From Dechloromonas sp. (GTDB taxonomy: Bacteria; Pseudomonadota; Gammaproteobacteria; Burkholderiales; Rhodocyclaceae): a stretch of DNA of 32,134 nucleotides. The notes beneath the pieces were generated by a model. The model did not search any database. It had not been told where the DNA came from and saw only the letters and a list, made by a program, of their open reading frames with translations. Shown here piece by piece: positions 6,291 through 27,810 of this stretch (its first letter is position 1; every line of letters starts with the position of its first letter). Position numbers and translations under genes: made by a program. The DNA lies in the NCBI GenBank assembly GCA_008933675.1, contig WBUO01000023.1, positions 1 to 32,134 on the forward strand, given 5' to 3'.

Positions 6291-6953
6291 ATGCCACTGT
6301 TCCAACAGGCGGTTTTTCTTACAACCGTCGCCAATCTTCGTGATCTGCCGCAGGATTCGGTGCGCGAAGTCGCCTTCGCCGGCCGCTCGAATGCCGGCAA
6401 ATCGTCCGCCATCAACACGCTTGCCGGTCGCGTCCGCTTGGCCTATGTCAGCAAGACGCCGGGGCGCACGCAACACCTGAACTACTTCACGCTGGCCGAT
6501 GGCAAGTATTTCGTCGATCTGCCCGGTTACGGTTATGCCAAGGCTCCAGAAGCCATTCGTTCGCAGTGGGAAGGGTTGATCGGGCCTTATCTGAACAAGC
6601 GGGCGCAACTGGCTGGGCTGGTCGTCATCATGGACGTTCGCCGGCCAATGACCGACCTCGATTTGAAGCTGATCGACTGGTTCCGGCCGACCGGCCGGCC
6701 GATCCATATCCTGCTGTCGAAGGCCGACAAGTTGAGCCGGCAGGAGCAGACCAAGGCGCTACGCTCGGTCAAGGCCGAGGTGGCGACCTGGGGCGATGCC
6801 GAACTGTATTCGGTGCAGTTGTTTTCCAGCCTGAAGAAAACCGGCCTGGAAGAGGCCGAGGCGGTACTTGCTAGCTGGCTGGACATTCCGCACAAGGCGC
6901 TGGAAAACAAAGGGCCCCCGGATAAGGGGGGTCCGGGGGCCAAAATGCCTTGA
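6291..6953 (+). CDS. engB: Ribosome biogenesis GTP-binding protein YsxC/EngB
   Basis: [13 protein letters not shown] (P-loop), [30 protein letters not shown]; true start MPLFQQAVF at 6291. Confidence 0.95.
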
Positions 6954-7018
6954 CGTGGTCAAGACACCCGCTCAGGGAGGTGAAGCGGGAGACAGCGCGT
7001 GCCATCTGGTTGCTCTGA

Positions 7019-26451: not shown

Positions 26452-26880
26452 TTAGTCTGCCTCGACGATTTCGAAGTCGTGGGTGATTTCGGCAACTTTG
26501 CCAAGCATGATGGAGGCCGAGCAGTATTTCTCTTTTGACAACGAGATTGCTCTGGCGACTGCGTCCGTCTTCAGATTTTTGCCCTTGACGCGATAGTGCA
26601 AATGGATGCGCTTGAATATCTTGGGGTCCGTTTCCGCTCGCTCTGCTTGCAGACTGACATCGCAAGCGGTGACCTTGTGGCGGCCTTTTTTTAGGATGAG
26701 CACAACATCAAAGGCGCTGCAACCGCCAGTGCCCGCAAGTAGCAGTTCCATTGGCCGAGGGCCCAAGTTGCGCCCGCCAGCCTCTGGTGCTCCATCCATG
26801 ACTAGCGCGTGGCCGCTGCCTGTTTCAGCGACGAAACTCATTCCTGAGTCAGTTCCTGTCCATTTAACGATGCATTCCAT
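26452..26880 (-). CDS. OsmC family protein
   Basis: GRNLGPRPMELLLAGTGGCSAFDVVLILKKGRHKVTACDVSLQAERAETDPKIFKRIHLHYRVKG. Confidence 0.92.
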   Translation of the reverse strand: MECIVKWTGTDSGMSFVAETGSGHALVMDGAPEAGGRNLGPRPMELLLAGTGGCSAFDVVLILKKGRHKVTACDVSLQAERAETDPKIFKRIHLHYRVKGKNLKTDAVARAISLSKEKYCSASIMLGKVAEITHDFEIVEAD

Positions 26881-27162
26881 TTGGGGCTCCCTGAAGGTAA
26901 AGGAATTCTAACGGAAATCGTCGCAACGATAGGGGCTTGCTGTCCAATGTTGCGCTGCATCAATATCGGTGGTTTGGTCATAGAGTCGCGACAGCGAGTT
27001 CTTGATTAAACATTGATTATTCTGTTATGAAAAATAATTTATTATTGTTTATTTTCAATATGTTGTTTTATATAGATCGTGCGAATCTGAAAATATCGCC
27101 ATCAATTGTGCGACGCACAAATTTTTCTTGCGCGAGACGGGGGCTTCGGGCACAATGCGAAG

Positions 27163-27273
27163 CGTACGGACTGTGATGACTTGTTGATTGTGAGTTTTCC
27201 GGTTCAGATTTGTCTCCTCCACCCTCCTCCTTTGGTGTGGATTTAACGCGGCTCAGCGAGCCGCGTTTTTTTT
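27163..27273 (+). ncRNA. Putative small RNA with CU-rich anti-Shine-Dalgarno motifs
   Basis: Non-coding gap between divergent osmC-like and rplM; candidate promoter TTGCGC-17-CACAAT (27128-27156); TCTCCTCCACCCTCCTCCTTT (27213-27233) followed by a strong terminator, all upstream of rplM's own promoter. 5' end is a guess. Confidence 0.55.
27245..27273 (+). terminator. Strong intrinsic terminator in the osmC-rplM intergenic region
   Basis: AACGCGGCTC-AGC-GAGCCGCGTT followed by T run; no ORF upstream on this strand. Confidence 0.9.
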
Positions 27274-27303
27274 GTCTGCAACCCTCTGGGTGAAGGAAAG
27301 TGA

Positions 27304-27333
27304 TTGACAGGGCGTCGGAGGTTCAACTAGAAT
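27304..27333 (+). promoter_or_regulatory. Sigma70-type promoter for rplM-rpsI
   Basis: TTGACA (27304-27309), 18-nt spacer, TAGAAT (27328-27333). Confidence 0.85.
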
Positions 27334-27381: not shown

Positions 27382-27810
27382 ATGAAAACGTTTTCCGCCA
27401 AGCCACATGAGGTGAAGCGCGAGTGGTTTGTGGTAGACGCCACAGACAAGGTGCTCGGCCGCCTCGCTACCGAAATTGCCCGCCGCCTGCGTGGCAAGCA
27501 CAAGGCTATTTATACGCCGCATATCGATACCGGCGACTTTATCGTTGTCACCAACGTCGACAAGCTGACCGTGACGGGTAACAAGGCCGATGACAAGAAG
27601 TACTATCGTCACTCGGGCTATCCTGGCGGTATTTACGAAACCAATTTCAAGAAGATGCAGCAGCGTTTCCCGGGGCGCGCCTTGGAAACGGCTGTCAAGG
27701 GCATGCTGCCCAAGGGCCCGCTGGGCTATGCGATGCTAAAGAAGCTGAAGTGCTACGCCGGCGATCAGCATCCTCACACCGCCCAGCAGCCGAAAGCTCT
27801 GGAAATCTAA
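27382..27810 (+). CDS. rplM: 50S ribosomal protein L13
   Basis: [56 protein letters not shown]. Confidence 0.98.

Follow-up and report, generated by a model that had tools for sequence, protein, structure and literature searches.

A small RNA of the RF02278 family beside rplM in Dechloromonas sp., a candidate member of the PhaR regulon

The intergenic region between an OsmC-family gene and rplM in a 32,134-nucleotide stretch of Dechloromonas sp. DNA, here called the window, harbours a small RNA (sRNA) gene which, by its sequence, is a new member of the known RF02278 family. We consider it probable, at roughly 70%, that its product is a trans-acting sRNA which stands under the control of the regulator PhaR and represses TRAP and ABC uptake genes. 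Family membership, a conserved promoter, a terminator, the fold, an operator-like site, the sharing of this site with a phasin gene and complementarity to the starts of target genes are directly apparent (Table 1). As an RNA the locus is ordinary; its interest is that of a regulatory lead. PhaR-type control of such an sRNA seems to be unreported in the literature searched, where no link between RF02278 and PhaR was found; the 2017 supplement and the 2019 NcS27 paper lie outside this literature.

Table 1. Positions in the window of the sRNA gene, its signals and its neighbours
Feature	Position	Strand	Basis
OsmC-family gene	26452..26880	-	PF02566; conserved left neighbour, adjoins the sRNA wherever a genus locus has sufficient flank
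Putative PhaR/PhbF-type operator, palindrome TTGTGC-GAC-GCACAA	27106..27120		Rarity; phasin site; known sites
-35 element TTGCGC of the sRNA promoter	27128..27133	+	TTG-17 nt-NANAAT in 28/28 genus loci
-10 element CACAAT	27151..27156	+	Same spacing in 28/28; start predicted near 27163 from spacing
Predicted primary transcript, ~111 nt	27163..27273	+	Promoter, terminator, fold
RF02278 core; likely processed short form, ~63 nt	27211..27274	+	Rfam, 64.4 bits; short forms in relatives
Site 1, UGUCUCCUCCA	27211..27221	+	First 7 nt single-stranded in fold
Hairpin 1 (stem 27218-27224 with 27234-27241, loop 27225-27233)	27218..27241	+	Fold; paired changes
Intrinsic terminator	27245..27273	+	10 bp, 7 GC, T8; stem with paired changes across families
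Separate rplM promoter, TTGACA-18-TAGAAT	27304..27333	+	Sequence; TTGACA and TAnAAT largely kept in relatives
rplM (ribosomal protein L13)	27382..27810	+	Conserved right neighbour

The assignment is based on a full-length Rfam match to RF02278, the 'Betaproteobacteria toxic sRNA' (model positions 1-64 of 64; cut-off 50 bits; E 5.8e-11 over the whole window), and the sRNA family is therefore not new. The first-pass annotation, which had proposed such a scan, had likened the RNA to the 'cuckoo' RNAs of alphaproteobacteria; this comparison holds as an analogy, while the family is RF02278 instead, and alphaproteobacterial sRNA families were not among the Rfam matches of the window, also with E relaxed to 1. 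The neisserial NmsRb model RF02877 scored 29.6 bits, below its cut-off of 52, which makes NmsRb a weak relative without shared membership. Published members of RF02278 are ncS03, ncS05, ncS27 and ncS62 of Burkholderia cenocepacia (PMC4603805; PMC5688073), four RNAs of Herbaspirillum seropedicae (PMC7011215) and S17 of Bordetella pertussis (PMC11722255). Matches to the family were present in 49 of 61 relatives and in 129 of 199 genomes sampled from the order, and in none of 14 control genomes; plasmid and phage collections yielded no match of this type.

A second copy in the same genome (31.8 bits) lies below the cut-off and was left out of the membership count. It is a weak RF02278-like double hairpin (L002:1501-1563, corresponding to contig C479:16305-16367, + strand) with CCCCTCCTC and CCCCCC stretches, situated divergently beside a 4Fe-4S protein gene with TGGAGGAGACACCATG in its start region, and the same pairing recurs in a further genome, G015. 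A genome from another family, G043, carries nine RF02278 matches with differing loops, two of which form a tandem spaced by 0.3 kb. The window itself also contains an anti-hemB sRNA (RF02837, Burkholderia RNA 7; 6905-6992, - strand) with 68.6 bits against an Rfam cut-off of 49.5.

From a strong terminator, a CU-rich stretch in front of it and the lack of a credible + strand open reading frame (ORF) upstream, an autonomous anti-Shine-Dalgarno (anti-SD) sRNA of about 110 nt had been proposed at first pass, a proposal supported by the Rfam assignment, by the conservation of promoter and terminator and by the comparisons among genomes. Both elements are present as described (AACGCGGCTCAGCGAGCCGCGTT with T8, and TCTCCTCCACCCTCCTCCTTT at 27213-27233), the ORF search returned no + strand ORF of at least 60 aa between 26912 and 27381, and the promoter found predicts a transcript of a length that agrees with the original guess. 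Within the osmC-rplM gap, TGTCTCCTCCACCCTCCTCCTTTGGTGTGGATTT stands before the terminator. CACC (27220-27223) and GGTG (27234-27237), read earlier as a stem enclosing a 10-nt loop, are in place, but their register differs: in the best fold UCCACCC pairs with GGUGUGGA in a 7-bp stem, which leaves the 9-nt loop UCCUCCUUU, Site 2, identical in letters to the 16S 3' tail. The 5' end of the core, UGUCUCC (27211-27217), is free as well, giving two unpaired anti-SD stretches and a CU-loop hairpin followed by an intrinsic terminator, as is characteristic of RF02278. Taken by itself, 27128-27280 has a modest MFE z-score of -1.74. As short forms are known in the family, namely S17S of 67 nt generated via RNase E (PMC11722255) and that of ncS27 (PMC5688073), a processed form is likely here too, and in certain paralogues the promoter appears to be placed such that the RNA begins directly at the core. 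Whether the upstream region might hold a sigma-54 promoter was also considered and rejected on visual inspection, since GCAC and TTGC are wrongly spaced.

Across 28 genus loci the core hardly varies in its letters whereas its flanks diverge, and the CU loop and the terminator, whose lack of conservation would, according to the first-pass annotation, have spoken against an sRNA, are both kept. In a set of 30 diverse cores, 95.9% of the tested cells of hairpin 1 are paired and three of the five pairs tested have changed on both sides, a result which exceeds slid controls and nearly all shuffles. The terminator stem shows paired changes across families in the same set too, so that the covariation looked for is present in both stems. 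Together, the Rfam score, the near-identical core between drifting flanks and the paired stem changes argue that the locus is more than chance. The order osmC, sRNA, rplM is found in 27 of the 28 genus loci, the remaining contig being cut, and rplM lies near 43 of 83 loci from the rest of the order, many of them viewed with only 600 bases of flank. That most genus copies lie directly before rplM and are co-oriented with it would suit an RNA that serves solely as an rplM leader or attenuator, truncated at the terminator and devoid of trans function; this is, however, very improbable, given that rplM has its own conserved promoter downstream of the terminator, as already recognised at first pass, that genus paralogues of the sRNA are located away from rplM and that the members of the family are separate trans-acting transcripts.

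Absent from the first-pass account is an operator-like palindrome upstream of the promoter. In its perfect form, TTGTGC-N3-GCACAA, it has three copies in the genome, at the sRNA, at a phasin pair (PF09361) and at an acyl-CoA-ligase-like gene, and it also marks phasin promoters in the genus; the reversed control pattern had no match over 61 genomes. As it recurs before phasin genes, its reading as a weak terminator, flagged by terminator prediction, was dropped. The genome encodes PhaR (PF07879 and PF05233), and thus combines a TGC-N3-GCA site at the sRNA promoter, a PhaR gene and the same site at a phasin gene, the features expected of the PhaR regulon. The footprinted consensus of H. seropedicae PhbF (PhaR), which represses phasin promoters, is TG[N]TGC[N]3GCAA (PMC3206438), and TTGTGCACTGCACAA, a 15-mer of the same type, is found in the phaP1 promoter of Sinorhizobium meliloti, which is shifted by PhaR (PMC12542648). 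We therefore take the palindrome to be a putative PhaR/PhbF-type operator. A TGC-N3-GCA palindrome is present at the promoter in 26 of 28 genus loci, just ahead of it and upstream of the -35 element (about -57 to -43), a position from which a regulator might activate instead of repress; moreover, sites as short as those of the PhaR type could be shared by other regulators.

On contig C239 of the same genome, the phasin pair with the palindrome lies ~3.3 kb from a DctP gene with a Site 1 complement. At five loci from several genus genomes, the palindrome closely precedes a conserved gene whose product has CoA-binding and succinyl-CoA-ligase-like domains, possibly a further PhaR target.

Across the family, TGCnnnGCA stands within 130 nt upstream of 79 of 118 RF02278 copies, whereas dinucleotide-shuffled sequence gives 8.0 (at most 14); five alternative palindromes of identical layout occur upstream of 0-5 copies, and the region 270-400 nt upstream contains the motif in four cases. 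Outside the genus, it is found in 39 of 52 PhaR-encoding genomes and in 8 of 23 without PhaR (Fisher p 0.0012, kinship uncorrected) and, counted by family, in 17 of 20 and 3 of 10 respectively (p 0.005), p-values which are guides only, since kinship is uncorrected, single genomes contribute several copies, one further genus member is counted among the 'others' and incomplete drafts may miss phaR. The exceptions, 13 of the 52 PhaR-encoding genomes without the core motif and the eight motif-bearing genomes without PhaR, would be accounted for if an uptake-repressing RF02278 sRNA were combined with a palindrome that serves another regulator, or if the PhaR link were limited to a few species; the B. 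pertussis sRNA, which follows the Bvg mode, and Neisseria NmsR, which responds to RelA, also point in this direction. We regard this as unlikely in view of the identical perfect palindrome at genus phasin promoters and of a sequence type which equals experimentally bound PhaR and PhbF sites.

Candidate targets were sought by searching for start codons preceded by the complement of Site 1. Perfect complementarity was required because, in DctP leaders, true sites could not be told apart from other starts by their ViennaRNA duplex energies. The pattern TGGAGGAGA-N-ATG occurs at nine sites in the genome, the reversed pattern at two, and three of the nine belong to DctP-type (TRAP) solute-binding proteins, for which the genome has seven genes in total (P 1.7e-7, a gene number of ~4700 being assumed). 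The 11-nt Site 1 complement TGGAGGAGACA stands before start codons of uptake genes, and ACA, the triplet which completes it, is the commonest one after TGGAGGAG (12 of 132 sites, compared with an expectation of 2.1, once self-matches of the sRNA are excluded). In relatives, genes for DctP and for Peripla_BP_6, an ABC-type periplasmic binding protein, recur behind such sites, next to chalcone-isomerase-like, ferredoxin-like, acyl-CoA dehydrogenase and acetyl-CoA-synthetase-like genes. As the matches include a strong SD, some of them may be plain good ribosome sites. The predicted targets agree with those published for S17, many of which are transporter proteins, and repression by S17S at the ribosome binding site of BP2158 has been shown (PMC11722255).

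With a Site 2 that matches the 16S tail letter for letter, the RNA could also act as a decoy, its loop UCCUCCUUU mainly sponging strong SDs such that translation is slowed globally. Sponging of this kind would explain the toxicity in E. coli after which RF02278 is named, and fits the attenuated growth of B. cenocepacia upon overexpression (PMC5688073). Yet Site 1 complementarity extends past the SD and shows enrichment at specific genes, and E. coli is barely slowed by overexpression of S17S, with no growth inhibition seen in exponential phase (PMC11722255), which makes a decoy quite improbable.

In the favoured reading, a PhaR-controlled sRNA with a limited set of targets, RNA polymerase with the housekeeping sigma factor would start near 27163 and stop at 27273, and the primary RNA would probably be trimmed to the 63-nt core. 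Its 5' end UGUCUCC(UCCA) and the loop UCCUCCUUU would then pair with Shine-Dalgarno regions, probably with involvement of Hfq, and translation would be blocked for a restricted set of genes, chiefly those of TRAP and ABC solute-binding proteins. Without PHB, PhaR would occupy the palindrome and keep the promoter low; once PHB granules bind PhaR it would leave the DNA and the sRNA would rise, so that a full carbon store would entail more sRNA and lower carboxylate uptake. Binding and its sign are inferred here from PhaR of Cupriavidus necator and S. meliloti, the latter of which acts as a repressor of mmgR, the gene of an sRNA. This alphaproteobacterial case of an sRNA gene controlled by PhaR adds to the plausibility of the circuit and takes from its novelty. 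Extended to the group, RF02278 sRNAs of Betaproteobacteria would be members of the PhaR regulon and, by lowering TRAP/ABC carboxylate uptake when the store is full, constitute a post-transcriptional arm of PHB signalling parallel to the PhaR-MmgR pair, a generalisation to which we incline at somewhat better than even odds. The 2017 family paper gave the regulator of these sRNAs as unknown and mentioned a common upstream motif, and the S17 preprint postulated an unidentified repressor. If PhaR is the repressor in PHB-making species, the 'toxic' RNA would be a feedback brake from stored carbon to carbon uptake, which, if true, would be relevant to bioplastic producers and to wastewater and plant-associated Betaproteobacteria.

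Among known systems, the PhbF/PhaR regulon of H. seropedicae and C. necator shares the operator consensus and the repression of phasin promoters, but no sRNA member has been reported for it in the literature searched. In S. meliloti, the gene of the sRNA MmgR (alpha-r8) is controlled by PhaR/AniA, has a TGC-N3-GCA palindrome that is bound, and is linked to PHB, although MmgR belongs to a different RNA family and to the Alphaproteobacteria and has a reported effect on phasin synthesis. The NmsR siblings of Neisseria (RF02877) are similar in carrying anti-SD1 between the hairpins and anti-SD2 in a loop and in their metabolic targets, and differ in RelA-linked control and in the subthreshold score of their model here. 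S17 of B. pertussis has the same core, occurs as a long form and an abundant RNase E-processed short form, and blocks ribosome sites, including those of transporter binding proteins, through Site 1 and Site 2; it adjoins coq7, a gene also found two genes from the sRNA in the window. On the other hand, S17 is under Bvg-mode control with a proposed unknown repressor, and its long form contains a 32-aa ORF, none being seen in the sRNA in the window. The B. cenocepacia RNAs ncS27 (bdhR1), ncS03, ncS05 and ncS62 likewise display two hairpins, two CU-rich unpaired sites and a U-rich end, and while the primary transcript of ncS27 is 92 nt long as compared with ~111 nt predicted here, the predicted targets of these RNAs, as in the present case, lie in uptake and metabolism.
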